From positions 124,001 through 188,000 of the forward strand of contig NZ_JAFNJS010000001.1 in NCBI RefSeq assembly GCF_019024325.1: a stretch of DNA of 64,000 nucleotides, given 5' to 3'. The notes below the pieces were generated by a model. The model saw only the letters and a list, made by a program, of their open reading frames with translations. It made no database searches and was not told the origin of the DNA. The translations under genes were made by a program, and so were the position numbers. The first letter of the stretch is position 1, and every line of letters starts with the position of its first letter. This DNA comes from Falsiroseomonas tokyonensis (lineage in GTDB: Bacteria > Pseudomonadota > Alphaproteobacteria > Acetobacterales > Acetobacteraceae). This document shows positions 33,633 through 53,713 of this stretch, in pieces.

Positions 33633-34343
33633 ATGAAAATCACCTGGTTCGGGCACTCGGCCTATCGCCTGGAATTCGCCAATTCGGTGGTGCTGATCGA
33701 CCCCTTCCTGACCGGCAACCCGGTCTTCCAGGGCGATGCCGAGGCGGCCAGCGCGGGCGCCACCCACATCCTGCTGACGCATGGCCACAGCGACCATGTC
33801 GGCGACACGCTGGCGATCCACCAGCGGACGGGCGCCAAGGTGGTGGCGAATTTCGAGATCTGCATGTGGCTGGCCCGCCAGGGGCTGAAGGCCATGGACC
33901 CGATGAACACGGGCGGCACCACGCAGCAGGACGATTTTGCGGTGACGCTGACCATCGCCTTCCATTCCTCGGCGGTGATGGACGAGAACGGCGTGACCCA
34001 GGACCTCGGCCTGCCCGGCGGGCTGGTGATCACGCCGAAGGCCAAGGGCGAGCCGGTGGTCTATCACATGGGCGATACCGAGGTGTTCGGCGACATGGCG
34101 CTGATCGGGGAGCTGCACAGCCCGACGGTGGCGATGGTGCCGGTGGGCGACCGCTTCACCATGGACGGCAAGCGCGGCGCGCTGGCGGTGAAGCGCTTCC
34201 TGCCCAGCGTCACCACCGCCATCCCCTGCCACTTCGGCACCTTCCCGATGATCGCGCCGGATGCCTCGGTCTTCGAGCGGGAGATGGCGGGCGCCAAGGC
34301 CCGCGTGCTGGTGCCGGAAAAGGGCGTGGCCTTCACGCTGTAG
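33633..34343 (+). CDS. UPF0173-type metal-dependent hydrolase (metallo-beta-lactamase fold)
   Basis: 236 residues beginning [15 protein letters not shown], the UPF0173 (YtkL) signature. The metal motif THGHSDH (His50, His52, Asp54, His55) and the later [10 protein letters not shown] and IPCHFGTFP are as expected. Function is unproven; a broad metal-dependent hydrolase. It overlaps the convergent FAD oxidase gene by 11 bases. A weak ribosome binding site (GGAGAG) precedes the ATG. Confidence 0.92.
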
Positions 34344-35439
34344 GGATCGCCGCCATCACCTCCTCCGCCAGCGCGAGGGAGGCCGTCAGCCCCGGGCTCT
34401 CGATGCCGAAGAGGTTCACGAGGCCCGGCACGCCATGGGTGGCCGGACCCTGGATGACGAAGTCCTGGCCCGGCGCGCCCTGCGGCACCGTCTTCGGGCG
34501 GATGCCGGAATAGCCCGGCGCCAGCGCGCCATCCGGCAGGGCGGGCCACCAGCGGCGGATGCTGTCGTAGAACAGCTCCCCCCGCCGCGGGTCCACATTG
34601 TAGTCGATGCGGTCGACCCATTCGACATCCGGCCCGAAGCGCGCCTGGCCGCCGAGGTCGATGGTCAGGTGGGTGCCCAGGCCACCCGGCACCGGCACCG
34701 GGTAGATCAGCCGGCTGAAGGGCGATTTCATCGTCAGGCTGAAGTAGTTGCCCTTGGCGTAGAAGGCGCCGGGGATGTGCTGTTCCGGCATGCCCGCGAT
34801 CCGCCGCGCCAGGCCCGGCGCATGCAGGCCGGCGGAGTTCACTAGCAGGTTGCAGGACAGCGCCATGGGCTCTGCCCCGCCCACCTCCAGCTCGATCCGC
34901 GCGCCGGCCACGCGGCCCTGCAGCACCGGCGCGTGGAAGGCGAACATGGCGCCCGCATCCTCGGCATCGCCCTGAAGCGCCAGCATATAGGCATGGCTGT
35001 CGATGATGCCGGTGGAGGGTGAGACCAGCGCCGCCGTGCAGGACAGGGACGGCTCGATCGCCCGCGCCTCATCCCCCGAGATGAAGCGCAAATCGTCCAC
35101 GCCATTGGCGGCGGCGCGCTGGCGGATGCCTTCCAGCTGCTCGGCCTCCGCCTGGCTGGTGGCGACGATCAGCTTGCCGCAGTTGCGATAGGGCACGCCG
35201 TGGCTGTCGCAGTATTCGTAGAGCTTCCACTTGCCGGCGACGCAGGTCTTCGCCATCAGGCTGCCGGCCTTGTAGTAGATGCCGGCGTGGATCACCTCCG
35301 AATTGCGGGAGGAGGTCTCGGTGCCGATGCCCTCCGCCGCGTCCAGCACCAGCACCTCCCGCCCCGCCTGGGCCAGCGCCCGGGCCACGGCGAGGCCGAC
35401 GACGCCCGCCCCCACCACCACGCAATCCACCTGGTCCAT
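34333..35439 (-). CDS. FAD-dependent oxidoreductase, L-2-hydroxyglutarate oxidase-like
   Basis: 368 residues of the DAO superfamily. FAD motif [27 protein letters not shown] (Gly residues 9-14), then [22 protein letters not shown], which is the LhgO/L2HGDH motif; [15 protein letters not shown] and [10 protein letters not shown] fit too. Oxidises L-2-hydroxyglutarate or a related 2-hydroxyacid and passes electrons to quinone or O2. Start ATG 35439 has GGGGGAG upstream; the longer 35475 start adds low-quality residues. LhgO itself is slightly longer (about 400), so specificity is uncertain. Confidence 0.88.
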
Positions 35440-35583
35440 GCTGCTCCCCCGAGGCTTTGGGGATGGGTATGGCAAAACGCGGCGCGGGGCGAGGGGGCCC
35501 GCGCCGCTTCGTGAAGCGTCGCCAAGCTGGAAACGCCGCCCCGGCAGGCGCAGGATCGCGCCAAGTCCGATGGGAGGATGTCC

Positions 35584-36624
35584 ATGTCGTTCTTCGCACG
35601 CCGTCGCGCCACGGCATTGCGGGCGGAGGCCGTCGCGCCCTCCCGCCGCCAGCTGCTCGCTTTGGGCTGCGCCTGCTGCACCGCGCTGGCCGCGCCGGTC
35701 AGCCAGGCCGCCGCGCAGTCACCCGCGGTGCAGCAGCACCTGGCCCTGGCCCGCGCCGCGGCGGGGGATGACCTGACGCATCTGCTGCGGCTGGGGGAGG
35801 TCGCCGCTCCCACCCCCGGCCTGCGCCTGCCGACGCCGGATGAGCAGCGCGCCCGACCCACGCCGCCGCCGGCGCGCGCCTTCGACAACCTGGTCTTCCT
35901 GGGCAACCACTGGGTCAGCGCCTGGGCGCTGCTGACCTCCGACGGGATCATTGTGATCGACGGCATGGACCACGACGCCATGGCCGAGCGCGATATCGAG
36001 GGCGGGCTGCGCCGCATGGGGCTGGACCCCGCTCAGGTGAAGCTGATGATCGTGACGCATGGCCATGCCGACCATTATGGCGGCTGCGGCCACTTCACCC
36101 GCCGCTACGGCACCCGCGTGGTGATGAGCGAGACGGATTGGCAGATGCTGGATTCCGGCCGGCTGGAATTCGACCGGCCGGAGCTGGGCCGGCCGCCGCG
36201 CCGGGACATTTCCGTCGGCGACGGCAGCGAGGTGCGGCTGGGCGACACGGTGGTGCGCATCCTGTCCACGCCCGGGCATACCCGCGGCACCATCTCACCC
36301 ATCATCGACCTGAAGCTGGGCGGTGCGACGCATCGGGCGCTGCTCTGGGGCGGCACCTCCTTCAACTTCGGCCGGCAGCCGGACAGGCTTCCGCGGCTGC
36401 AGAGCTATATCGACGGCACCGCCCGCGCCCGCCAGGTGGCGGGGGAGCAGGAGATCGACGTGTTCCTGTCGAACCACAGCAGCTTCGACCTGGCCATCCC
36501 GCGACTGGAGCGGATGCGCGATGGCGGGCCGAACCTCTTCGTCACCGGCGTGCCCGCGACGCAGCGCGCGCTGACCGTGATGCATGAATGCGCCCGGGCG
36601 ACCATGGCTGCCTGGACGGCGTGA
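35584..36624 (+). CDS. Exported metallo-beta-lactamase-fold hydrolase with B3-like metal site
   Basis: 346 residues. A Tat-like signal ([19 protein letters not shown]) predicts export. Zinc ligands in the order of subclass B3: [10 protein letters not shown] (His159, His161, Asp163, His164), His232 in [10 protein letters not shown] and His298 in [14 protein letters not shown] at 35572-35577 abuts the ATG at 35578 but is 6 bases from 35584, so 35584 is taken. A B3-type metallo-beta-lactamase, a lactonase-like or another hydrolase are all possible; whether it hydrolyses beta-lactams cannot be read from sequence. Confidence 0.85.
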
Positions 36625-36627
36625 GGC

Positions 36628-38292
36628 TCACCCCTTCAGGCGCCGCCAGGCGGTGACCTGAAGGGCGGAGGCCTGCACATGCACCACCGCCGGCTTCGTG
36701 CGCGGCGCCAGCGCCGCATCCAGCACGGGCGCGATGTCGGATTCGCTGGCGATGGTGAAGCCCTCCGCCCCGAAGGCGCGGCCCCAGGCGGCGAAATCGG
36801 GGTTCACCAGGTCCGCCGCATCGGCGGTGTTCCGGCCGGGATAGCGGTTGGCGTGGTGCATGCCGATCGAGCCATAGGTGCGGTTGTCCGAGACCAGCAG
36901 CACCGGGGCCGCGCCATGGCGCATGGCGGTGGCGAGTTCATTGCCCGTCATCAGCGCGCCGCCATCGCCAGTCACGGCGATCACCTGCCGGCCCGGATGG
37001 CGGATGCTGGCGGCCACCGCCATGGGCATGCCCGCGCCCATCCCGCCGACCGCGGAGCCCAGGAAGATCTGGCCCGGCCGGAAGGGAATGTGGCGGTGCA
37101 CGAAGCTGGTGAAATTGCCGGCATCGGTGGTGAGCACCGCATCCGCCGTCATCCGCTCCGCCACCGCAATGCAGACGGCGGAGAAATTCACGCCATCCGG
37201 CGCCGGGTCCCAGCGCGGCGCCGTCAGGTCCCGGTGCAGCCCGTGCAGCCGCGCGATCCAGGCGGCGCGGCCAGGGGGAGTCGGCGGCGTGCGGCGGGCA
37301 AGCAGCGCCTCCACCAGCAGCGCCGGGTCGCAGGCCATGGGCAGGTCGGCGCGGAAGACGCGGTTGAGCTCGGAGGGGTCGGGCCAGACATGCACCAGCG
37401 GGATCTGCGGGTCGGGCGCGGTCGGCCAGGTGTAGGATTGGCTGACCACATCGGTCATCCGCTCGCCCAGCGCCACCAGCAGATCGGCCTCGCGTAGCGC
37501 CGCCATCAGCGGCGGCTGCACGCGGTTGCCGATATAGCCGGCATAGTTGGGGTGGTGGCTGTCGAACAGGTGCGGGCGGCGATGCGTCGGCGCCACCGGC
37601 AGTGACCATTCCTCCGCCAGGCGCTTCAGCGCGGAGAGCGCCGCGGGCGGGCCATCCATGGCGCCACCGACCAGCACCACCGGGCGCTGCGCGGCGGCCA
37701 GGCGCTTGGCCAGCTCCTCCACCTGCGCCGGCGCGGGGCCGGGCGTCGCGCGGATGCGCGGCTTGGCGAGCGGAATCTGCGTGGCGTCGTCGTCCAGCAC
37801 ATCCTCCGGCAGTACCACCGCCACGGGGCCGGGCGTGCCGGATTCGGCAAGGTGGAAGGCGCGCGCGATCGCCTCGCTGGCCTGCACCGCCATGTCCACG
37901 GGAATCACGGCCTTCACCGTATCCGCCAGGTACTTTTCGTAATTCTGCTCCTGAAGGGCGCCCCTGCCACGGTCGCGGCGCTCCACCTGGCCGATCAAAA
38001 GCACCATCGGGATGGCGTCGTGGAAGGCCGTGTGCAGGCCGATCATGGCGTTCGACACGCCAGGGCCGCGCGAGACCATGCAGACGCCGGCGCGCCCGGC
38101 GCGCATGCGGCCATCGGCGGCGGCCATATAGGCGGCGCCACCTTCATGCCGGCACACCACCAGCTTCAGCGCCGGCACATCCACCAGCGCATCCGTCAGC
38201 CCGAGAAAGCTTTCGCCCGGCACGCAGTACAACAGATCCACGCCATGCGCGGCGAGGCTTTCGGCGACGAGCCTTCCAACGCTGCGCGTCAT
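36628..38292 (-). CDS. Acetolactate synthase-like ThDP-dependent enzyme
   Basis: 554 residues. ThDP enzyme motifs: catalytic Glu50 in CRHEGGAAYMAAADGRMRAG, SRGPGVSNAMIGLHTAFHD, PGPVAVVLPEDVLDDD, and the ThDP/Mg motif GDGG (442) through SDN (Asn470). It resembles the large subunit of acetolactate synthase and related 2-oxoacid decarboxylases or carboligases; no regulatory subunit lies beside it. It is the last gene of a five-gene operon whose previous gene is a class IV aminotransferase, so the substrate is probably the 2-oxoacid produced there. ATGA overlap at 38289-38292. Confidence 0.85.
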   Translation of the reverse strand: MTRSVGRLVAESLAAHGVDLLYCVPGESFLGLTDALVDVPALKLVVCRHEGGAAYMAAADGRMRAGRAGVCMVSRGPGVSNAMIGLHTAFHDAIPMVLLIGQVERRDRGRGALQEQNYEKYLADTVKAVIPVDMAVQASEAIARAFHLAESGTPGPVAVVLPEDVLDDDATQIPLAKPRIRATPGPAPAQVEELAKRLAAAQRPVVLVGGAMDGPPAALSALKRLAEEWSLPVAPTHRRPHLFDSHHPNYAGYIGNRVQPPLMAALREADLLVALGERMTDVVSQSYTWPTAPDPQIPLVHVWPDPSELNRVFRADLPMACDPALLVEALLARRTPPTPPGRAAWIARLHGLHRDLTAPRWDPAPDGVNFSAVCIAVAERMTADAVLTTDAGNFTSFVHRHIPFRPGQIFLGSAVGGMGAGMPMAVAASIRHPGRQVIAVTGDGGALMTGNELATAMRHGAAPVLLVSDNRTYGSIGMHHANRYPGRNTADAADLVNPDFAAWGRAFGAEGFTIASESDIAPVLDAALAPRTKPAVVHVQASALQVTAWRRLKG

Positions 38293-39245
38293 TCCGCGGC
38301 GGCCTTCGCGGCATTGCCGCGCCAGACCGGTGTCAGCCAGGGGCGATACTTTTCGATCCTGCCGCGCACCGCGTCGTTGTAGAGCTGCTGCAGCTTCCGG
38401 GTGACGGCGCCCGGCGTGCCGTCGCCGATGTCGTAGTGGTCGATCGAGACCATCGGCAGCACCTCGGCGCCGCTGCCGCAGAAGAAGGCCTCATCGGCGA
38501 CATAGAGCTCCGAGCGGTCGACATCACGCTCCACCACCTCCATGCCCAGCTCCTCCCGCGCCAGCTCCATCAGCGTCTCCCGCGTGATGGATTCCAGGAT
38601 GTCGGCGGTGACGGGCGGGGTGATGAGCTTGCCGTGGCGCACGATCATCACGCAGGCGCCGGGGCCTTCCGCGACTTTGCCGGCCGCGTTCAGCATCACC
38701 GGCGGGCCCATGCCGTTCATCCGCGCCTCGATATAGGCGAGGCGGGAGTTGTGATAGTTCGCGCCCGACTTGATGCGGGAAGGCGACGACAGGTCGCTGT
38801 TGCGGCGCCAGGTGCTGATGGCGCTTTTCACGCCGGTCTCCTGCACCTTCTTCGACGGCATGGAGAAGGCCAGGATGAAGAAGCCGGTGCGGATCTCGCT
38901 GGGCAGATAATGGGTCAGCTCGCCTTCCGCGAAATAGACCACGGGGCGGTAGTGGATCGTCTCCCGGTAGTTGCAGGCGCGGATGAGCTCCAGGCTCGCC
39001 GCCTCGATCTCCGCATCGCTGTACGGGATCGTCATGCGCATGATTCGCGCGCCCTGGCGCAGGCGGGCGATGTGGTCGGCGTGGCGGAAGGTGTAGAGTT
39101 CCTGATGGTCTTCGTTCCAATAGGCGCGGATGCCCTCGAAGACATTCTCGCCGCGCAGCACGCATTCGGTGGAGATATGCATGGTGGCATTGGCCCAGGG
39201 CACCAGCTTGCCGTCGAGCCAGGCGTAATCCGCCGTCTTGCTCAT
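38289..39245 (-). CDS. Branched-chain-amino-acid aminotransferase-like (PLP fold type IV)
   Basis: 318 residues. PLP Lys159 lies in SSPSRIKSGANYHNSRLAYIEA; N-terminal MHISTECVLRGENVFEGIRAY matches IlvE/D-amino acid transaminase-type class IV enzymes. It interconverts an amino acid and its 2-oxoacid. Length is typical. ATG overlaps the hyuA stop (ATGA) and its own stop overlaps the next start the same way. The context (hydantoinase subunits upstream, ThDP enzyme downstream) suggests catabolism of an amino acid released from a cyclic amide. Confidence 0.9.
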   Translation of the reverse strand: MSKTADYAWLDGKLVPWANATMHISTECVLRGENVFEGIRAYWNEDHQELYTFRHADHIARLRQGARIMRMTIPYSDAEIEAASLELIRACNYRETIHYRPVVYFAEGELTHYLPSEIRTGFFILAFSMPSKKVQETGVKSAISTWRRNSDLSSPSRIKSGANYHNSRLAYIEARMNGMGPPVMLNAAGKVAEGPGACVMIVRHGKLITPPVTADILESITRETLMELAREELGMEVVERDVDRSELYVADEAFFCGSGAEVLPMVSIDHYDIGDGTPGAVTRKLQQLYNDAVRGRIEKYRPWLTPVWRGNAAKAAAE

Positions 39246-41338
39246 GGGGTGGTCTCCTCCGGATAGGTGATGTCGATCAGCAGATTGCCGTGGATGTCGC
39301 GCGTCACATGCGCGTCGGGGCCGAGCACCACGGTGGATTCGCGCTCCTCCACCACGGCGGGTCCGGCGATGCGTTCGCCCACGGGCAGGCGGTAGCGGTC
39401 ATAGACGGCGCAGGGGGCGAGGCCGGTGGCGGCGAACCACACCTTGCGATGCCCCTTCAGCGCCGGGCCTTCGCCCTTCGGTGGCGTGAAACCTTCCGGC
39501 ACCGCGGGGCGGCTGGCGGTGGCATGCAGGCGCCAGGAGAGCACCTCCATCGCCACGCCCGTGATGCGCCGGTCGAAGAGCTGGAAATAGGTTTCGCGGA
39601 AGGCGTGCTCCACCGCCGCGGCATCCGCCGCGTCGGGGACCGGCACGCTGATATCGAAACCCTGGCCGGCATAGCGCATGTCCGCGCTGCGGCGGAACGT
39701 CACGTCGCCTTCGGCCGCGCCGGCATCCAACAGCATGGCGCGGGCCTCCGCCTCCATTTCCGCAAATTTTCCAGCGACGCCGTCCCAGTCCACCGCCGTC
39801 AGCCGCTGCACGCCGGAGCGCACCAGGTCGATGGCGGGTGCCGCGACGAGAAAGCCGAGCGCGGAGGCGACGCCCGCGCCCTGCGGCACGATGACGCGGG
39901 ACAGCTTCAGCAGTTTGGCCAGCCCATAGGCATGAACCGGACCGGCGCCGCCGAAGGCGAGCATGGCGTAGCGGCGGGGATCGCGGCCCTTCTCCGCCAC
40001 ATACATGCGCGTGGCGGCGGCCATGTTCTCGTTGACGATGCTGTGGATGCCGGCCGCGGCCTCCAGCGCCGTCATGCCGAGCTTCTGGCCGAGCTGCGTC
40101 TCCATCGCACGCTCCACCGCCGCCAGATCCAGCGCCATCTCGCCGCCCAGAAAATACTCCGGCGAGAGATAGCCCAGCAGCAGATCCGCATCCGTCACCG
40201 TCGGCTGCGTGCCGCCGCGCCCGTAGCAGACCGGGCCGGGCACAGAGCCCGCGGATTCCGGCCCGACGTTCAGCAGCCCCATCGCGTTCACATGCGCGAT
40301 GGAGCCACCGCCGGCGCCGATCTCGATCAGGTCGATCACCGGCACCTTCAACGGCAGCCCCGACCCCTTGCGGAAGCGCCGCACCCGCGCCGCCTCGAAG
40401 GTCGAGGCATGTTCCGCCTCCCCCTTCTCGATCAGGCACATCTTGGCCGTTGTCCCGCCCATGTCGAAGGAGATCATGTCGGACACGCCGGCGATGCGGC
40501 CGTAATGCATCGCGGCCGTCGCACCCGCCGCAGGACCGCTCTCGATCAGCTGCACGGGATTGGCCCGCGCATAGCTGACCGATGCGATTCCGCCGGCCGA
40601 GAGCATCAGATGCAGCGGCCCGCCGAGGCCACGCCGGCGCAACTCCGCCTCCAGGCTCGCGAGATAGCGATCCATCAGCGGCAGGACATAGGCATTCACG
40701 CAGGCGGTATTCGCGCGCTCGTATTCACGGATTTCCGGCGCCACGTCGGAGGACAGCGTGACGGGCACGCCCGGCAGCTCCTCCGCCAGGATCGCGCCGA
40801 TGCGGCGTTCATGCGCGGGGTCGAGGTAGCTGTGCAGCAGGCAGACCGCCACCGCCTCCACCGCATCCGCGCCCAAGGCACGCGCCGCGTCGCGTACCTC
40901 GGATTCAACCAGCGCCACCAGCTCGCGCCCGCGCGCATCGTGCCGCTGCGTCACCGCATGGCGGCGCGGCCGCGGCACCAGCGGCTCCGGCTTGTCGAGG
41001 AAGAGGTCGTAAAGGTCGTAGCGCATCTCCCGCCCCATCTCGAGGCTGTCGCGGAAGCCGCGCGTGGTCACCAGGCCGATGCGCGCGCCCTTGCGCTCGA
41101 TGACGGTGTTGGTCACCAGCGTCGTGCCATGCACCACCTGGCGCACATCGCCGATGGCGGCGCCCGCCTCCGACAGGATCCGGGAGATGCCTTCGAGGAT
41201 GGCGCGGCCGGGATCGTCCGGCGTGGTCAGCCGCTTGCCGGTCAGCACGCGGCCGGTGGCGTCATCCACCAGCACGAAGTCGGTGAAGGTGCCGCCGACA
41301 TCCACACCGATGCGCAGCGGCTTCGAGACATCACTCAT
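39242..41338 (-). CDS. hyuA: Hydantoinase/oxoprolinase subunit A
   Basis: 698 residues, N-methylhydantoinase A/5-oxoprolinase N-terminal half. The ATP-binding opening GVDVGGTFTDFVLVDDATG, VVHGTTLVTNTVIERKGARIGLVTTRGF, and SFDMGGTTAKMCLIEKGEAE match the family. With subunit B it hydrolyses a cyclic imide or lactam (hydantoin, 5-oxoproline, acetone-carboxylase-like relatives) using ATP. Coupled by ATGA overlaps to the Bug receptor upstream and the aminotransferase downstream. Confidence 0.93.
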   Translation of the reverse strand: MSDVSKPLRIGVDVGGTFTDFVLVDDATGRVLTGKRLTTPDDPGRAILEGISRILSEAGAAIGDVRQVVHGTTLVTNTVIERKGARIGLVTTRGFRDSLEMGREMRYDLYDLFLDKPEPLVPRPRRHAVTQRHDARGRELVALVESEVRDAARALGADAVEAVAVCLLHSYLDPAHERRIGAILAEELPGVPVTLSSDVAPEIREYERANTACVNAYVLPLMDRYLASLEAELRRRGLGGPLHLMLSAGGIASVSYARANPVQLIESGPAAGATAAMHYGRIAGVSDMISFDMGGTTAKMCLIEKGEAEHASTFEAARVRRFRKGSGLPLKVPVIDLIEIGAGGGSIAHVNAMGLLNVGPESAGSVPGPVCYGRGGTQPTVTDADLLLGYLSPEYFLGGEMALDLAAVERAMETQLGQKLGMTALEAAAGIHSIVNENMAAATRMYVAEKGRDPRRYAMLAFGGAGPVHAYGLAKLLKLSRVIVPQGAGVASALGFLVAAPAIDLVRSGVQRLTAVDWDGVAGKFAEMEAEARAMLLDAGAAEGDVTFRRSADMRYAGQGFDISVPVPDAADAAAVEHAFRETYFQLFDRRITGVAMEVLSWRLHATASRPAVPEGFTPPKGEGPALKGHRKVWFAATGLAPCAVYDRYRLPVGERIAGPAVVEERESTVVLGPDAHVTRDIHGNLLIDITYPEETTP

Positions 41339-42315
41339 TCAGGCTTGATCCCCGCCGTCGTCACCACGTCGCGCCAACGCGCCGTCTCACTCACCAGCAT
41401 GCTGCGAAAGTCATCGGGGCCGAGCTGCAGCCGCTCCAGCCCCAGCGCCGGCAGCCGGGCCTGCACCGTTTCCGTCGCCATCGACTTGTCGATCGCCTCG
41501 CGCAGCCGCGCCACGATGGGCGCGGGAATGCCGGCCGGGCCGAGCACGCCCCACCAGAAGCCGGCGACCAGGTCCACGCCCTGCTCGCGCAGCGTCGGCA
41601 CATCCGGCATGGCGGCCAGGCGCTGCTCCGCCGCCACGCCGATCACCCGCATCTGCCCGGCGGCGACCAGCGGCGCGGCGGTGGCCATTGCCTGGATCAT
41701 CGCCTGCACCGTGTTGTTCAGCACATCCGGCAGCGCCGCGCCGGTGCCGCGATAGGGCACATGCGTCACCTTCACGCCGCTGCGCATCTGCAGCAGCTCG
41801 ATCATCAGATGCGTGCTGGTGGCGGTGCCGCCGGAGGCGACGTTCACCGCCTCCGGCCGCGCCTTGGCGGCCTCCAGCAGGTCCCGCGTGGTGCGGAAGG
41901 GCGAGCTGCTCGCCACCACCAGCAGCGCCGGCGCCACGCCGAGCGTCGCGATCGGCGTGAAATCCCGCGCCGTGTCGAAGGCCACGGGCTGGTTGTTGGC
42001 CGCCTGCACCGCCGGGATGGTCGCCAGCGGCGTATCGCCCAGCAGCAGGGTCAGCCCATCCGGCGGGCTGCGCATCACCGCCTCCGCGCCGATCTGGCTG
42101 CCGGCGCCGGCGCGGTTCTCCACCACCACGGGCTGGCCCAGCTCCGCGCCCAGCGGCGTGGCCAGCAGCCGGCCGAGCGTGTCGGAGCCACCGCCCGGCG
42201 CGAAGGGCACGATCATCCGCAGCGGCCGCGTCGGCCAGTTTGCCTGCGCGTGGGCTGCAAAGGGCGCAGCCGCGAAGGCGGCTGCCAGGGCACGGCGGGT
42301 GAGCTTCATTGTCAT
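41335..42315 (-). CDS. Bug/TctC-family periplasmic substrate-binding protein in the hyu operon
   Basis: 326 residues. Signal peptide LTRRALAAAFAAAPFAAHAQ; Bug motifs WPTRPLRMIVPFAPGGGSDTLGRLL, VENRAGAGSQIGAEAVMRSPPDG, VNVASGGTATSTHLMIELLQM, VPYRGTGAALPDVLNN and VAAEQRLAAMPDVPTLREQGV. GGAGG upstream supports ATG 42315. Lying between hyuB and hyuA with ATGA overlaps on both sides, it probably recruits the operon's substrate from the periplasm. No TctA/B subunits are adjacent. Confidence 0.92.
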   Translation of the reverse strand: MTMKLTRRALAAAFAAAPFAAHAQANWPTRPLRMIVPFAPGGGSDTLGRLLATPLGAELGQPVVVENRAGAGSQIGAEAVMRSPPDGLTLLLGDTPLATIPAVQAANNQPVAFDTARDFTPIATLGVAPALLVVASSSPFRTTRDLLEAAKARPEAVNVASGGTATSTHLMIELLQMRSGVKVTHVPYRGTGAALPDVLNNTVQAMIQAMATAAPLVAAGQMRVIGVAAEQRLAAMPDVPTLREQGVDLVAGFWWGVLGPAGIPAPIVARLREAIDKSMATETVQARLPALGLERLQLGPDDFRSMLVSETARWRDVVTTAGIKPE

Positions 42316-43952
42316 TGGTTTTTCCTCCCGTAGTCGCGTTGCGCCCCCTCGGGCGTGACGTAACCATCGGCGATGTCCCGCTGCACCGCCACCGGGTCCC
42401 GCAAGGCGGGGTCGCCATAGCCGCCGCCGCCGCCGAGATGCATGGTCAGCCGGTCCCCCGGCGCCAGCATGGTGCGCGACTTCGGATGCGGCTTGCGGCC
42501 GTCCTGCAACTGCACCAGCGCCGGCGCCCCCGCCTGCGCGCCATCCAGCCCGCCCGCCGGGTGCTTCATGCGGTCCGAGATCAGCGAGAGGCGCACGGGC
42601 TGGTCGGTCATCACCTCCAGCTCGATCTCCTGGCCCAGCCCGCCGCGGAACTGCCCCGGCCCGCCGCTATCCGCCAACAGGTCCTTGCGCCAGACGAGGA
42701 TCGGCGCGGAGGCCTCGAAAGCCTCGATGGAGCCGGAGCCCGAATTGGTCGGGAAGGCCGTGGTGTTCAGCCCGTCGCGCCCCTGTGTCGCACCCATGCC
42801 GCCGCTGCCGAACAGCACCTGGCTGAAGCGATCGCCGCGATCATCCTGGCCCGTATAGACCGGCCGTGGCGCCGGAGAGGCGCTGTCCGCCACCACCAGC
42901 CCCGGCGCGATCTGCGCCAGGCATTTGTACAGCGCGCCCGACAGGAACAGCCCCGTTAGATGCCGCGCATTCACCGCCGCCGGCCAGCGCGGATTGAGGA
43001 TGGATCCCTCCGGCGCCGTCACGCCGATGGCGCGGTAGCTGCCCTCGTTGCGCGGCGTCATCGGGTCCAGCGCGCATTTCAGCGGATAGACCGTATAGGC
43101 GTAGGTGTAGTTCATCACGCTGTTTAGCCCGCGCGCGATCTGCGGCGAGGTGCCGGCGTAATCCACGCTGAGGCTGTCGCCCGCGATGGTCACCGCGCAT
43201 TGGATGCGCGTCTCGGCCTCCTCATAGCCATCCGCGAAGACCGTGCCGTGCCAGGTGCCATCCGGCAGCGCCGCGATCGCCTGGCGCATCGCGCCATCCG
43301 CGCGCGCCTGCAGCGTCGCCGAGAGCGCCGTGAGATCCGCGAGGCCCGTATCGCCCAGGAATTCCACCACGCGCCGCGCACACACTGTGATCGCCGTGAT
43401 CTGCGCCTGGATGTCGCCCATCACCTGGTCGGGCACGCGCACATTGCCGCGGATGAAGCGCACCACCTCCCGGTTCTCGCGCCCCTCCACCAGGAATTTT
43501 GTGGGCGGAATCCGCAGGCCTTCCTCGAAGACCTCCGTGCAATCGGCCGACCACAAGGTGCCGCCGATATCCGGCATGTGCGAAGTGGCACCCGCGAAGG
43601 CCACCAGCCTGCCCTGATGAAACACCGGCATCGCCGTGGTGATGTCCAGCAGATGCCCCGTGCCCATCCAGGGATCGTTGGTCATCAGCACATCGCCCGG
43701 CCGCAGCTCCTCCAGCGGATACTCGGCCAGCATGTGCTTCAGCGTACGCGGCAGAAGACCCACGAAACTCGGAATGCCGATGGAATTCTCCGCCAGGCTG
43801 TTGCCCTCCGCATCCATCAGCACCGTCGCGAAATCGTTGGACTCGCGGACGATGGTGGAAAACGAGGTCCGCAACAGCGCCGCCGCCGCCTCATCGGCGA
43901 TCGAGATCAGCCGGCTCCACAGGATCTGCAGCGTGACGGGATCGAAGTGCAT
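42312..43952 (-). CDS. hyuB: Hydantoinase/oxoprolinase subunit B
   Basis: 546 residues of the hydantoinase B family. Motifs: DPVTLQILWSRLISIADEAAAALLRTSFSTIVRE, VLMTNDPWMGTGHLLDIT, AGATSHMPDIGG and GGGGYGDPALRDP at the end (about 520-535). ATG 43952 follows the divergent promoter; a longer frame to 44021 would cover the LysR control region. First gene of the operon hyuB-bug-hyuA-aminotransferase-ThDP enzyme. Confidence 0.93.
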   Translation of the reverse strand: MHFDPVTLQILWSRLISIADEAAAALLRTSFSTIVRESNDFATVLMDAEGNSLAENSIGIPSFVGLLPRTLKHMLAEYPLEELRPGDVLMTNDPWMGTGHLLDITTAMPVFHQGRLVAFAGATSHMPDIGGTLWSADCTEVFEEGLRIPPTKFLVEGRENREVVRFIRGNVRVPDQVMGDIQAQITAITVCARRVVEFLGDTGLADLTALSATLQARADGAMRQAIAALPDGTWHGTVFADGYEEAETRIQCAVTIAGDSLSVDYAGTSPQIARGLNSVMNYTYAYTVYPLKCALDPMTPRNEGSYRAIGVTAPEGSILNPRWPAAVNARHLTGLFLSGALYKCLAQIAPGLVVADSASPAPRPVYTGQDDRGDRFSQVLFGSGGMGATQGRDGLNTTAFPTNSGSGSIEAFEASAPILVWRKDLLADSGGPGQFRGGLGQEIELEVMTDQPVRLSLISDRMKHPAGGLDGAQAGAPALVQLQDGRKPHPKSRTMLAPGDRLTMHLGGGGGYGDPALRDPVAVQRDIADGYVTPEGAQRDYGRKNQ

Positions 43953-44035
43953 TTTTTTCCGAGATGCTCCGGCGGATCGCGGCAGTCTGCCGCCCGCTTG
44001 GCGCCCCCGGTAGCGATCCATTAGGGTGCGCCGCC
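43953..44035. promoter_or_regulatory. Divergent promoter region between hyuB operon and LysR regulator
   Basis: The 83 bases between the hyuB start and the LysR-type gene start are the only non-coding stretch of the cluster and must carry both promoters and the LysR binding site. No clear T-N11-A dyad or -35/-10 pair could be picked out by eye. Confidence 0.5.
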
Positions 44036-44935
44036 ATGAGCCTAACTCAAGGCGTCACCGCCCTCCCCCTCCAGGCCCTTCGCGCCTTCGATGCCGCCGC
44101 CCGCCACCTCAACATGGCCCGCGCAGCCGAGGAACTCGGCGTCACCCAAGGCGCCATCAGCCGCCAGGTGAAGGCCCTGGAAGAACAACTGGCCGAAACC
44201 CTGTTCCTGCGCGGCCCGCGCGGCCTGAAACTGACCGAGGCCGGGGACCTGCTGGCAGACTACGTGCGCCGCGGCCTGGAACAACTCGAAGCCGGCCTGT
44301 TCCGCATCGGCCAACCCCGGTCCCGCACCACCCTCGTCGTCAACGCCGCCCGCACCTTCGCCATGCGCGTGCTCGCCCCCCGTATCGCCGACTTCACCCG
44401 CGCCCATCCCTGGATCGAACTCCGCCTCGAAACCCACCGCTACTTCGCGCAACTCCACGGCGCCGATGTCGACGTCGCCATCCGCGCCGGCACCGGCGAC
44501 TGGCCCGGCCACGTCGTGCGCCCCCTCACCCGCGAAGTGCTCTTCCCCGTCTGCGCGCCCGACTACCTGCCCGCCGGCACCCCCGCCGCTACCGCCATCC
44601 CCAACTCCACCCTGCTGCACTACGCCGAACGCCCCCACTGGCGAGACTGGCTGACCGCCGCAGGCCTCGACCCCGCCCTCGCCACCCCCGGCCCCCGCTT
44701 CGACGAAACCGCCCTCACCCTCGCCGCCGCGGAAGCCGGCCAAGGCCTCGCCGTCGCCTGGGGCATCCTCGTCGCCGACGCCATCCAGGCCGGCCGCCTG
44801 ATCCGCCCCTTCCAACCCACCCTCGACGACGGCACCGGCTACCACCTGGTGATGACCGAACTCGCCTCCCGCCGCTCCACCGTCCACACCTTCTGCACTT
44901 GGCTCCAAACCGCCCTCACGCCTCGGCCGGATTGA
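44036..44935 (+). CDS. LysR-family transcriptional regulator (GcvA-like)
   Basis: 299 residues. N-terminal HTH: LPLQALRAFDAAARHLNMARAAEELGVTQGAISRQVKALEEQLAETLFLRGPRGLKLTEAGDLL, with the GcvA-type start. C-terminal effector domain follows (ADVDVAIRAGTGDWPGHVVRPL, VCAPDYLPAG). Divergent from hyuB across 83 bases, the normal place for a LysR activator of that operon. Codons here end in C (CTC Leu, GTC Val) noticeably more than in the operon it faces. Confidence 0.9.
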   Translation: MSLTQGVTALPLQALRAFDAAARHLNMARAAEELGVTQGAISRQVKALEEQLAETLFLRGPRGLKLTEAGDLLADYVRRGLEQLEAGLFRIGQPRSRTTLVVNAARTFAMRVLAPRIADFTRAHPWIELRLETHRYFAQLHGADVDVAIRAGTGDWPGHVVRPLTREVLFPVCAPDYLPAGTPAATAIPNSTLLHYAERPHWRDWLTAAGLDPALATPGPRFDETALTLAAAEAGQGLAVAWGILVADAIQAGRLIRPFQPTLDDGTGYHLVMTELASRRSTVHTFCTWLQTALTPRPD

Positions 44936-46565: not shown

Positions 46566-47426
46566 TCAGCCGCCCAGGAAGTCGCGGATGGCGGTGTCGT
46601 AGTGGCCGTCCCGCTGCCAGCGCTTGGTGGTGGCAGAATCCGGCAGGCCTTGCAGGTCCTTGGGTGCGGTGCCGTCGCGCAGCGCCTTGAGGGTGTCGTG
46701 CACGGCCTGCATGGCGGCGGGGAAGGTGGCGTGGCCTTGCAGGGCGATGCGGGCGCCGTGGCGGGCGAGATCGGCGGCACCGCCGAGGCCGGGCTTGGCG
46801 CTGCCGACGAGGAGGGGCAGGCCGGTCGCCTCGCGCAGCGCGGTGAGCTGGGCGAGGTCGGTGAGACCGGTGACGAAGATGCCGTCGGCGCCGGCCTCCG
46901 CATAGGCGCGGGCGCGGGTGACGGCGTCCTCGGTAGTGGTCACGGAGAGGGCGGAGGTGCGGGCGACAATCACCAGGCTGGGATCGGTGCGGGCGGCCAG
47001 CGCCGCGCGGATCTTGCCGAGGCCCTCGGCGAGGGGGAGGAGTTCGGTGCGGTCCGGGCCGTAGGGGCGCGGCAGCAGCGTGTCCTCGATGGTCAGGGCG
47101 GCAACGCCGGCGGTCTCCAGCTCCTCGACGGTGCGCATGACGGACAGCGCATTGCCGTAGCCGTGGTCGGCATCCACCAGCAGGGGTGGGGCGCCGGCGC
47201 GGGTGATGCGGCGGATGAGGTCGGCGAATTCGGTGAGGGTCAGGATGATGTGGTCGGGCGCGCCGAGCACGGCGAGCGAGGCGACGGAGCCGCCGAGGAT
47301 CGCGGTCTCGAAGCCGAGATCGGCGGCGATGCGGCCGGAGATGGCGTCGAAGACGCTGGCGGGGTGCAGGCAGGCGGTGCCGGAAAGCACGGCCCGGAAG
47401 GCTTTCCGGCGCTCGGTCGCTGTCAT
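46566..47426 (-). CDS. Isocitrate lyase/PEP mutase superfamily protein (oxaloacetate decarboxylase-like)
   Basis: 286 residues of the (beta/alpha)8 ICL/PEPM fold. Motifs: PASVFDAISGRIAADLGFETAILGGSVASLAVLG, DADHGYGNALSVMRTVEELE (Mg-binding Asp), LTIEDTLLPRPYG and ARTSALSVTTTEDAVTRARAYAEAGADGIFVTG. The GGSVAS and DADHGYGNA variants match the PA4872-type oxaloacetate decarboxylase group more than true isocitrate lyase, which has KKCGH. ATG 47426 is chosen over an upstream extension. Cytoplasmic; precise substrate uncertain. Confidence 0.85.
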   Translation of the reverse strand: MTATERRKAFRAVLSGTACLHPASVFDAISGRIAADLGFETAILGGSVASLAVLGAPDHIILTLTEFADLIRRITRAGAPPLLVDADHGYGNALSVMRTVEELETAGVAALTIEDTLLPRPYGPDRTELLPLAEGLGKIRAALAARTDPSLVIVARTSALSVTTTEDAVTRARAYAEAGADGIFVTGLTDLAQLTALREATGLPLLVGSAKPGLGGAADLARHGARIALQGHATFPAAMQAVHDTLKALRDGTAPKDLQGLPDSATTKRWQRDGHYDTAIRDFLGG

Positions 47427-47462
47427 GGTCGGGTCCTGTGGCGTTTCCGCCAGCAGGGTAGC

Positions 47463-47498
47463 GCGCCGCCGGGTGGCTGACAGCCCACCCGGCGGCGC
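47463..47498 (-). terminator. Strong GC hairpin downstream of degP
   Basis: GCGCCGCCGGGTGG (47463-47476) and CCACCCGGCGGCGC (47485-47498) form a perfect 14-bp stem with an 8-base loop. It is 60 bases downstream of the degP stop on the minus strand. No T-run follows. Confidence 0.6.
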
Positions 47499-47558
47499 CC
47501 TTCCCGCCCGGCCCGCCAAGGGCGGCGCCGGGCGGCGTGACGTGAACCCGGGGGGGGT

Positions 47559-51253: not shown

Positions 51254-52123
51254 CTAGGCTGCGACCTTGGGCAGGATGCGCCACTTGGCCTCCGCCCAGT
51301 CGAAATACAGCGTCCGCGCCTTCTGGCAGAGCGGCCCCGGCTGCATGTGCCGCCCCTGCCAGTTCGAACACGGCAGCACCTTGCCGTAGTTGCCGGTGGA
51401 GAAGATCTCGTCCGCCGTGTCCAGCTCCTCCGGCTTCACGGCGCGTTCCTCCACCGTCACGCCGGCCTCGCGCAGCAGGGCGATGACGCGGCCGCGGGTG
51501 ATGCCGGCCAGGAAGGTGCCGTTCACCGCCGGGGTGATCACCTTGCCGTCCTTGGCGAACATCAGGTTCGCATGGGCGAATTCCGCCACATGGCCGATCG
51601 GGTCGCAGACCACCGCGGCCTCGAACCCCTTTTCATGCGCGAAGGCGGCGGCGCGGGATCCATTGGGATAAAGGCAGGCGGCCTTGGCATCGGTCGGCGC
51701 CTGGTCCGGCGCCGGGCGGCGCTGCGGCGCCAGGCAGGCGGAGAAGCCTTTGTATTCCGGCAGCGGGCTGTCGTAGATCGCCAGGATGAAGTCGGTGCTG
51801 TCCGGGTCCGGCCGGGCGGCGCCCAGCCCCTTGCGGACGAAGAACATGGGGCGGATGTAGAGCTCCGCCTGCGGGCCCATGCGGCGGATGCCCTCCCGGC
51901 ACAGCTCCTCGATCTCGGCCGGGGTCTTGGTGGGCTTCATCAGCATGTTGCGGGCGGATTGCACGGCGCGGGCGCAATGCAGGTCGAGGTCCGGCGCCAC
52001 GCCGCCGAAGGACCGGCCGCCATCGAAGATCACGCTGCCGAGCCAGAAGGCGTGGTCCATGGGGCCGATCACCTTCGGCTCCTCGGTGGACCAGTTCCCG
52101 GCATACCAGTAGACGCCCGCCAT
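51254..52123 (-). CDS. Class IV aminotransferase (BCAT/D-amino-acid transaminase type)
   Basis: 289 residues. PLP Lys147 in PTDAKAACLYPNGSRAAAFA; ENV FDG-like motif VIFDGGRSFGGVAP; STGNYGKVLPCSNWQG towards the end. Second aminotransferase of this family in the window and only weakly similar in motif order to the one at 38289 (here the start WYAGNWSTEEP, MDHAFWLGSVIFDG). Could be a branched-chain or D-amino-acid transaminase or 4-amino-4-deoxychorismate lyase relative. No operon partner on its strand. Confidence 0.85.
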   Translation of the reverse strand: MAGVYWYAGNWSTEEPKVIGPMDHAFWLGSVIFDGGRSFGGVAPDLDLHCARAVQSARNMLMKPTKTPAEIEELCREGIRRMGPQAELYIRPMFFVRKGLGAARPDPDSTDFILAIYDSPLPEYKGFSACLAPQRRPAPDQAPTDAKAACLYPNGSRAAAFAHEKGFEAAVVCDPIGHVAEFAHANLMFAKDGKVITPAVNGTFLAGITRGRVIALLREAGVTVEERAVKPEELDTADEIFSTGNYGKVLPCSNWQGRHMQPGPLCQKARTLYFDWAEAKWRILPKVAA

Positions 52124-52239: not shown

Positions 52240-52524
52240 ATGCAAATCCATTTCGTCGTCCATGATGAGGGCGACAGCGTGGGCGTGGTTGTGGTGGAAG
52301 GCCTGAAGGCCGGCACCAGGCTGAACGGCTGGATCATGGACCAGGACAAGATGATGGAGTTCGACGCCAAGTCGGACATCCCGATCGGCCACAAGCTGGC
52401 CATCCGGCCCATCGCCAAGGGTGATACCATCATGAAGTACGGCACGGATATCGGCCGCGCGGTGGCCGATATCGGCGCCGGCGAGCATCTGCACGTGCAC
52501 AACGTCAAGACGAAGCGCTGGTAG
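52240..52524 (+). CDS. UxaA/SuyA-like small subunit (SAF domain)
   Basis: 94 residues forming a single SAF domain: [21 protein letters not shown], then [41 protein letters not shown]. Matches the N-terminal domain of altronate/galactarate dehydratases when split, and the small subunit (SuyA) of (R)-sulfolactate sulfo-lyase. Its stop is 13 bases before the large subunit. As a pair they would eliminate water or sulfite from a hydroxyacid. Confidence 0.85.
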
Positions 52525-52537
52525 GGGAACGGAACCG

Positions 52538-53713
52538 ATGGGCCTGAACCTGAGGGATGCCAGCTTCGAAGGCTGGCGGCGCGAGAATGGCCGGATGGGC
52601 GTGCGCAACCACGTCATCATCCTGCCGGTCGACGATCTGTCGAATGCGGCCGCCGAGGCGGTGGCGAACAACATCAAGGGCGCGCTGGCGATTCCGCACG
52701 CCTATGGCCGACTGCAATTCGGCGCGGACCTCGACCTGCACTTCCGGACGCTGATCGGCACCGGCACCAACCCGAACGTCGCCGGCGTGATCGTCATCGG
52801 CATCGAGCCCGGCTGGACCGGCAAGATCGTCGAGGGCATCGCCAAGTCCGGCAAGCCGGTGGAAGGTTTCGCCATCGAGCAGAATGGCGACATCAACACC
52901 ATCGCCAGCGCCTCCCGCGCCGCCTATCGGCTGGTGAAGCATGCCTCCAAGCTGAAGAAGACCAAGGCGCCGCTGGTGGAGCTCTGGGTCTCCACGAAAT
53001 GCGGCGAGAGCGACACCACCTCCGGCCTCGCCTCCTGCCCCACCGTCGGCAATTCCTATGACAAGCTCTGGGCCAACGGGAACACCCTGGTCTTCGGCGA
53101 GACCAGCGAGATCACCGGCGGCGAGCATCTGGTGGCGGCGCGCTGCAAGACGCCCGCGATCCGCGACCAGTTCATGGCGATGTTCGACCGCTACCAGCGC
53201 GTGATCGAGGCGAACAAGACCAACGACCTGTCGGACAGCCAGCCGACCAAGGGCAATATCGAAGGTGGCCTGACCACCATCGAGGAAAAGGCCCTGGGGA
53301 ACATCACCAAGATCGGCAAGAAGTGCACGGTCGATGGCGTGCTGGACAAGGCCGAGGTGCCGACCCATTCCGGCCTCTGGTTCATGGACAGCTCCTCCGC
53401 CGCCGCCGAGATGGTGACGCTCTGCGCGGCCTCGGGCTTCGCCGTGCACACCTTCCCGACCGGCCAGGGCAATGTCATCGGCAACCCGATCCTGCCGGTG
53501 ATCAAGCTGACGGCGAATCCGCGCACCCAGCGGACCATGTCCGAACACATCGACGTCGATGTGACCGGCCTGCTGCAGAAGCAGATGAACATGGACGAGG
53601 CCGGTGAGGCGCTGCTGGATTGCATCCTGCGCACCGCCGATGGCGAGCTGACGGCGGCCGAGCTGCTCGGCCACCGCGAATTCAGCCTGACGCGCCTCTA
53701 CGAAAGCGCTTGA
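52538..53713 (+). CDS. UxaA/SuyB-like large subunit (hydroxyacid dehydratase/sulfo-lyase)
   Basis: 391 residues of the UxaA C-terminal family. [57 protein letters not shown], and the Cys-containing [20 protein letters not shown] are family landmarks; a further Cys lies in TLCAASGF. Length and the split layout resemble SuyB ((2R)-sulfolactate sulfo-lyase, about 390 residues) as much as altronate dehydratase, which is usually one chain with SAF. The reaction here, dehydration or sulfite release, cannot be settled from sequence. A strong UUCG hairpin follows. Confidence 0.85.

Follow-up and report, generated by a model that had tools for sequence, protein, structure and literature searches.

In a 64,000-nucleotide stretch of the 6.16-Mb genome of Falsiroseomonas tokyonensis (contig NZ_JAFNJS010000001.1, positions 124,001 to 188,000, or G000:C1:124001-188000 in our own numbering, in which G, C and L numbers denote genomes, contigs and loci), referred to here as the window, five minus-strand genes form the run hyuB-Bug-hyuA-AT-ThDP (43952-36628), which we read as a candidate operon for the breakdown of a cyclic amide. 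The first gene, hyuB (42312..43952), encodes a 546-aa protein matching PF02538 (Hydantoinase_B; E 3e-150), and it is followed on the same strand by the genes for a Bug/TctC periplasmic receptor (41335..42315; 326 aa; PF03401, E 2.5e-59), HyuA (39242..41338; 698 aa; Hydantoinase_A; PF05378, PF01968, and PF19278), a class IV aminotransferase (AT) of fold type IV that resembles branched-chain aminotransferases (BCATs) (38289..39245; 318 aa; PF01063), and a thiamine diphosphate (ThDP) enzyme of the acetolactate synthase (ALS)-like fold family, PRK08199 subfamily, with three TPP domains (36628..38292; 554 aa). Neighbouring genes overlap in frame by the 4 bases ATGA at each of the four junctions, and a divergent gene for a GcvA-like LysR-type regulator (44036..44935, plus strand; HTH_1 and LysR_substrate domains; 277 bits against PRK11139, slightly below the cut-off of 288) starts 83 bases from hyuB. 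The five genes, four overlaps, and divergent regulator listed in an earlier note made from the letters of the stretch were all recovered in place and in frame. A rough GC-based gene call across the whole window yielded 33 adjacent same-strand pairs, six of which could have a 4-base overlap; because four of those six are the operon junctions, the run of ATGA overlaps is not background. In 10 other loci of the genus, 27 of 36 junctions had 4-base or 1-base overlaps with script-chosen start codons, a count that omits one pair in L041, whose ThDP gene lies 5998 bases from the Bug gene. The region between hyuB and lysR (43953..44035) contains a perfect 15-base palindrome, GCGGCAG-T-CTGCCGC, at 43979-43993, a possible regulator site; since the palindrome was not kept in the eight relatives compared, six of which had the CAGTCTG core alone, it was set aside as a LysR operator.

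The Hyu pair was assigned to a family by nucleotide motifs, metal ligands, and model scores. HyuA carries DVGGTFTD at 13, DMGGT at 292, and GSVPGP at 364, and so has all three nucleotide motifs of the lactamase family, defined for CapA as the P1, P2, and adenosine motifs (DxGGTxTD, DxGGT, and GxxPGP) in PMC8453981. The metal tetrad of HyuB, D40/H100/D103/H125, was present in 24 of 24 aligned sequences (the window's included) drawn from Hyu clades A, B, C, and II. The closest solved chains to HyuB were those of an N-methylhydantoinase (7hk5) and CapB (6yra), and a RESxD stretch was common to HyuB and 7hk5, not to CapB. When the CapB pocket residues listed in PMC8453981 were mapped by hand via an HMMER alignment, L38, T336, C410, and C411 corresponded to E37, H331, T402, and N403 in HyuB, with the remaining pocket positions staying hydrophobic; clades C and II have Gln where the window protein has H331. 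Two basic residues adjoin pocket positions, namely, R330, invariant in 24 of 24 sequences, and R363, invariant in the 16 sequences of clades A, C, and II and replaced by Asn in the eight of clade B. With E37, H331, T402, N403, and the two arginines at or beside the pocket, HyuB would be expected to suit a ring that is charged or highly polar more than a simple lactam. Identity with the caprolactamase CapAB was rejected because the scores against the NCBIfam equivalogs were 518.8 and 250.2 bits (cut-offs, 1000 each) and because the vicinal Cys410-Cys411 pair and pocket residues are replaced; membership in the acetophenone carboxylases was likewise rejected, the scores being far under the NCBIfam cut-offs (323 against 1500, 187 against 1250, and 119 against 1500 bits). 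HyuAB is thus predicted to be an ATP-dependent lactamase/hydantoinase in which HyuA would be the ATP-binding, phosphorylating subunit and HyuB the lactim-hydrolysing subunit with the metal site; for this pair, "hydantoinase" is a family label only.

The operon AT, which has the motif RIKSGANY with Lys159, passed two BCAT models, PRK06606 (312 bits; cut-off, 279) and ilvE_I/TIGR01122 (294 bits; cut-off, 245.55), and by these scores is a putative BCAT-like enzyme. It is not the only BCAT-like enzyme of the genome, given that a second class IV AT gene in the window (51254-52123, minus strand) scored 381 bits against the BCAT-family model PRK13356 (cut-off, 262). Reading frames resembling UxaA/altronate dehydratase were seen by eye in the translations after that second gene, at 52240-53713.

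The ThDP enzyme has the motif RHE, with Glu50, and GDG at 442, and it passed PRK08199 (555 bits; cut-off, 539), a model named only "thiamine pyrophosphate protein." Its scores against acolac_lg (TIGR00118; 277 bits; cut-off, 538) and the AlsS models (240 to 271 bits; cut-offs, 510 to 551) were about half of what those models demand. The sole ALS_ss_C/IlvN-type (PF10369) match in the genome, C23:583610-583831, lies directly after another ThDP gene, C23:581519-583150, whose product is 28% identical to the operon enzyme. Since the ALS cut-offs were missed and the IlvN partner belongs to C23:581519-583831 rather than to the operon, an ordinary acetolactate synthase was rejected; the possibility raised in the earlier note, of such an enzyme with its regulatory subunit encoded elsewhere, fell away with it, the IlvN-partnered synthase being a separate locus.

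HyuB relatives with at least 79% identity were found in 12 of 15 genomes of the genus, the window's counted, and all 12 neighbourhoods were read. In 11 of them, hyuA, AT, and ThDP genes follow hyuB in the same order (the ThDP gene of L125 runs over a contig end), and the twelfth, L126, is cut off at a contig end past hyuB-Bug. An orthologous Bug gene (65 to 100% identity) lies between hyuB and hyuA in 8 of the 12 loci, one of the eight contig-truncated; L041 has another Bug gene (33%) between the AT and ThDP genes. A LysR gene stands beside hyuB in nine. Because the three enzyme genes follow hyuB in 11 of 12 loci and the Bug gene is in place in 8, the conserved core is hyuB-hyuA-AT-ThDP, with Bug as an accessory and the least conserved member. 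The synteny that the earlier note had proposed to look for therefore held in part: the core occurs in 10 further genomes of the genus, with one more locus contig-truncated, and a module of the same kind occurs in other genera and families, so that the outcome the note had named as fatal, synteny confined to a single genome, did not arise; the exact five-gene set was found only inside the genus, where the orthologous Bug gene is kept. Matches to the operon ThDP enzyme at E 1e-120 occurred in 88 of 299 genomes of the family, a count that takes in the genus and more distant paralogues. Stretches were fetched around 60 of the listed places, 5 in the genus and 55 outside it; all five genus stretches carry the operon, and among the other 55 a distant Hyu pair (36 to 46%) was present in five (L055, L071, L073, L081, and L094) and a Bug gene in 28. 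As far as seen, the exact operon is genus-level within the stretches read.

The three enzyme activities also come together in other arrangements. The first, termed type B, is found in the window genome itself at a second locus (C34), where ThDP_b-hyuB-hyuA stand in that order with a divergent AT gene. Among the HyuB matches listed, type-B loci were present in 11 of the 15 genus genomes; ThDP_b stands beside hyuBA in all 11 (contig-cut in L117) and the AT gene in 10, the AT match of the eleventh (G152) being about 21 kb away, outside the stretch. Nine type-B stretches with ten Hyu pairs, from eight genomes, were read outside the genus, and in two of them, L260 (G362) and L262 (G491), from other families of the class, AT-hyuB-hyuA-ThDP_b stand in a row, with Bug and TctA genes upstream and, in L262, also TctB. 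Type C comprises L120 (G064), with hyuB-hyuA-ThDP_c-AT followed by two acyl-CoA dehydrogenase genes, and L269 (G672, another family), with hyuA-ThDP_c on one strand, hyuB divergent, and AT convergent with hyuB. A CoA ligase-like gene and two acyl-CoA dehydrogenase genes lie near one module. The ATs of L120 and L121 were 57 to 59% identical to the operon AT and that of C34 was 40% identical, and a branch with a support of 97 separated type B in the AT tree. Among the 385 genomes of the class scanned, G427, G672, and G365 were the only ones beyond the family with a HyuB match of at least 60% identity.

The module ThDP enzymes are of different descent. A tree of 40 sequences (10 of the 11 operon loci, all but the truncated L125; 10 of the 55 further members of the lineage; 12 of 16 from type B; both from type C; and six paralogues from the window genome) placed the window lineage with its non-Hyu relatives and types B and C elsewhere, together on a long branch. 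A single clade for all module ThDP enzymes was rejected (AU p 8.8e-5, from a quick tree with long branches); types B and C were 32 to 39% identical to each other and the window lineage was 24 to 30% identical to either. In the HyuA tree, clades A, II, and B had supports of 100, 99, and 100, respectively, and clade A was joined with four of five clade C rows at 80. Given a window lineage that is only 24 to 30% identical to the other module ThDP enzymes and not in one clade with them, the simplest reading of these alignments is that ThDP enzymes joined, or replaced each other in, the set of HyuAB plus transaminase at least twice. Such repeated joining would be expected if the reactions form one pathway, and since relatives appear to have assembled the same three activities in other ways, the combination is probably a real pathway. 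The logic set out in the earlier note, ring opening followed by transamination and a ThDP step, gains support from this recurrence in other gene orders with ThDP enzymes of another lineage. Furthermore, when 14 HyuB, 10 ThDP, and 6 class IV AT genes were placed at random in this genome, two or more HyuB genes had both partners within 6 kb in about 1e-5 of 200,000 trials, and one or more had them in 0.3%; this null is crude, since it takes no account of operons or of shared descent.

Other Hyu loci were also surveyed. A third Hyu clade, II, is frequent in the family and usually has the order hyuB-hyuA-Bug. A class I aspartate-transaminase-like gene is nearby in nine loci, made up of 7 of 36 (in L253 the gene is on the opposite strand) together with L122 and L123; weak ThDP matches (24 to 34%) were present in 3 of the 36 (L242, L243, and L245), and a weak AT4 match (28%) in L243. 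The third Hyu operon of the window genome, C45:51879-58921 (L122), has the order hyuB-hyuA-Bug-Bug-class I AT, and this aspartate-transaminase-like AT scored 535 bits against a cut-off of 617. Two peptide patterns returned at least 80 loci with HyuA relatives, which are not a census; among the 80 listed, AT4-like matches were present in four stretches and ThDP matches in two (L134 and L135, from the same genomes as L129 and L120).

The receptor gene says little alone, because the genome has at least 150 Bug/TctC genes and six TctA genes, all of the latter away from the operon. Neither TctA nor TctB is encoded in the operon, which thus has the receptor only and falls short of a full tripartite tricarboxylate transporter. 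With such numbers, most Bug receptors of the genome must share permeases or serve other roles. Bug/Tct systems are generally thought to bind anionic substrates.

Taken together, the operon is, in our judgement and with slightly more confidence than doubt, a catabolic operon for a cyclic amide, in which an ATP-dependent lactamase would yield an alpha-amino acid that is then transaminated and passed to a ThDP enzyme processing 2-oxoacids. The Bug receptor would capture an anionic ring compound in the periplasm and hand it to a TctAB-type permease encoded elsewhere. By the mechanism of the family, HyuA would spend ATP to phosphorylate the ring amide in its lactim form, and the activated ring would be hydrolysed at the metal site of HyuB. 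The ring-opening product would be an alpha-amino acid, which the fold-IV alpha-transaminase would turn into a 2-oxoacid for decarboxylation or ligation by the ThDP enzyme; LysR would probably sense the substrate or an intermediate. The partnership of a transaminase with a ThDP enzyme, a class that acts on 2-oxoacids, indicates that the amine of the HyuAB product would be an alpha-amine, and a lactam yielding an alpha-amino acid must have a carboxylate on the carbon adjoining the ring nitrogen, as in 5-oxoproline, its homologues, and substituted forms. An alpha-carboxylated, 5-oxoproline-like lactam would therefore fit the gene order best, and it would need no carbamoylase.

Cyanobacterial alpha-ketoglutarate decarboxylase resembles acetolactate synthase. 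That ThDP enzyme solely decarboxylates a 2-oxodiacid (PMC10418658), and acetolactate synthase of Bacillus subtilis can act as a 2-ketoisovalerate decarboxylase, according to a title cited in the same paper. With both kinds of decarboxylation known, a 5-oxoproline-like chain, running from the ring through a glutamate-like acid and a 2-oxoglutarate-like acid to a semialdehyde, leaves no gap in the chemistry. Unsubstituted 5-oxoproline is not a convincing candidate for the substrate, since no dedicated transaminase or decarboxylase is required for glutamate. A leucine-type substrate, suggested by the BCAT and by carboxyltransferase and biotin carboxylase genes near the C34-type locus, was not adopted, such matches being present in 3 of the 11 type-B genus loci (L114, L117, and L133) and in neither L260 nor L262. 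It is possible, and we propose it tentatively, that these genes specify a pathway for alpha-carboxylated lactams with a ThDP decarboxylase that is new to the literature and was assembled more than once in Alphaproteobacteria with ThDP enzymes of different descent.

Several observations weigh against this catabolic reading. No aldehyde dehydrogenase or other next step is encoded within the operon. The Bug gene is missing or displaced in 4 of the 12 genus loci, with L040, L042, and L125 having no internal Bug gene. All 55 non-genus stretches with an orthologous ThDP gene (54 to 65%) lack the AT and an orthologous Hyu pair, several of them being cut by contig ends, and two close AT relatives (L118 and L119) have no Hyu gene in the stretch. 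In the nine type-B stretches outside the genus, ThDP_b is near in five and the AT in two. Near clade A, L121 consists of hyuB-hyuA-AT and an amidase gene, without ThDP, and L270 and L136, among the Hyu pairs nearest clade A, have neither AT nor ThDP genes; L136 is nearer clade II in the HyuA tree. Of the 36 clade II loci, no more than 7 have a class I AT nearby. Finally, the ThDP tree is quick, with long branches, and its grouping of types B and C indicates only two ThDP origins. The pairs in L270 and L136 have other neighbours: an isopropylmalate/tartrate-dehydrogenase-like gene after hyuA (L270:14160-15221) and a gamma-glutamyltransferase-family gene after the HyuBA pair (L136:7553-9415), each below the NCBIfam cut-off and clear in Pfam, which are possible hints to ring chemistry.

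The closest solved relative, 7hk5, goes under the name N-methylhydantoinase, and HyuB has the RESxD stretch in common with it and not with CapB. Both points would also suit a hydantoin route, in which HyuAB would convert a 5-substituted hydantoin into an N-carbamoyl amino acid and an amidase or carbamoylase with its gene elsewhere would then release the free amino acid for degradation by the AT and ThDP enzyme. In L121 the Hyu and AT genes have an amidase-signature gene as their neighbour, and amidase-like matches (29 to 35%) at 4 of the 11 type-B genus loci and at L140, L254, and L261 speak for this route and against the lactam. The window operon itself has no amidase gene, in a genome in which no genome-wide carbamoylase search was made, and the L121 amidase was unmatched in the module stretches of G064, G362, G491, and G672, many genes of which are unannotated; we consider the hydantoin route unlikely. 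It is very improbable that HyuAB is instead an ATP-dependent carboxylase of the acetone/acetophenone type, with the operon making a branched 2-oxoacid or amino acid: the superfamily is the same and acetophenone and acetone carboxylase chains were matched, but the model scores given above lie far under the cut-offs and the two-subunit layout is CapAB-like. Moreover, carboxylases of this type give beta-keto acids, which are not substrates of an alpha-transaminase.

For the last step, the three module ThDP groups best match acetolactate synthases among solved chains and, PRK08199 aside, among models, which would be in keeping with carboligation, the 2-oxoacid being coupled to a second carbonyl compound rather than decarboxylated to an aldehyde. 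We regard this as rather unlikely, since the acetolactate synthase model score is about half the cut-off, ALS-type enzymes can decarboxylate 2-oxoacids, as in the B. subtilis case cited by title in PMC10418658, and the CoA ligase-like and acyl-CoA dehydrogenase genes lie near one module. The genus-restricted synteny and the many Hyu and Bug genes of the genome might alternatively be explained by chance, a duplicated BCAT and acetolactate synthase having come to lie beside an unrelated hydantoinase. This is improbable in view of the recurrence of the three activities with non-orthologous ThDP enzymes, the separate IlvB-IlvN pair, and the second BCAT-family (PRK13356) gene in the window.

Three further genes flank the operon. 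A convergent metallo-beta-lactamase-fold gene (35578-36624, plus strand) has its stop codon 3 bases from that of the operon, and it reached the cut-off of none of the 25 listed models (at best, 120 bits where 500 are required; for subclass B3, 110 where 240 are required). Downstream, 34333-35475 (minus strand) encodes an L-2-hydroxyglutarate-oxidase-like FAD enzyme (202 bits; cut-off, 299), homologues of which lie after the operon in L039 (93%) and near the non-Hyu ThDP loci L059 and L067 (71 to 72%). On the other side, past the MFS gene neighbouring LysR, is a PEP-mutase superfamily gene (46566-47519, minus strand; PF13714).

HyuAB/OplAB-type genes are common and often misnamed. The recurring partner set points to an alpha-amino acid product and so would narrow the substrate search, and an ALS-like or BCAT-like gene in an operon of this kind is not necessarily a sign of branched-chain biosynthesis. 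If the proposed pathway is right, many genes annotated as "hydantoinase," "BCAT," and "acetolactate synthase" would gain one common real function. The authors of the caprolactamase structure make the case that, in Pseudomonas, many of the genes labelled oplAB specify lactamases acting on other substrates (PMC8453981). In the open PubMed Central literature, no description was found of an operon with HyuAB, a fold-IV transaminase, and a ThDP enzyme, which agrees with the statement in the earlier note that no operon with this exact gene set was known to its author.

Compared with known systems, the operon is of the ATP-dependent lactamase type, and its partnering with a fold-IV transaminase and a ThDP enzyme would be the new part. 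The caprolactam cluster of Pseudomonas jessenii, as described in PMC6061476 and PMC8453981, has the same two-subunit ATP-dependent lactamase, B-before-A order, AT gene, and catalytic motifs. In that pathway, an omega-amino acid is transaminated to an aldehyde that is then taken up by an aldehyde dehydrogenase (PMC6061476), the enzymes being a fold-I omega-transaminase and 6-oxohexanoate dehydrogenase, whereas the operon has a fold-IV alpha-transaminase and a ThDP enzyme; the operon also has a Bug receptor inserted and lacks the CapB Cys-Cys pair and part of the hydrophobic pocket. The best reading by analogy is that the operon would be an alpha version of the caprolactam pathway. The 5-oxoprolinases/N-methylhydantoinases (Hyu/Opl; chain 7hk5) belong to the same family by the ATP motifs of HyuA and the RESxD stretch of HyuB, but the operon differs in having split subunits coupled to an AT and a ThDP enzyme. 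The AruH-AruI arginine transaminase pathway likewise places a transaminase before an ALS-like ThDP 2-oxoacid decarboxylase; it has no ring-opening step, and the operon ThDP enzyme scored 218 bits against PRK07524 (cut-off, 500). With tripartite tricarboxylate transporters the operon shares the receptor family (Bug/TctC) without TctA or TctB, whereas the G362 module has a neighbouring TctA gene and the G491 module has both TctA and TctB next to it. Lastly, a HyuAB-type pair, hydantoinase/oxoprolinase A and B, has been proposed to act on opine lactam rings in an uptake and catabolism region with a LysR gene on a succinamopine Ti plasmid (PMC6733357); the accessible part of that paper mentions no BCAT or ThDP enzyme and likewise gives the role as a proposal, so that opine lactams may be taken as only a lead to the substrate.

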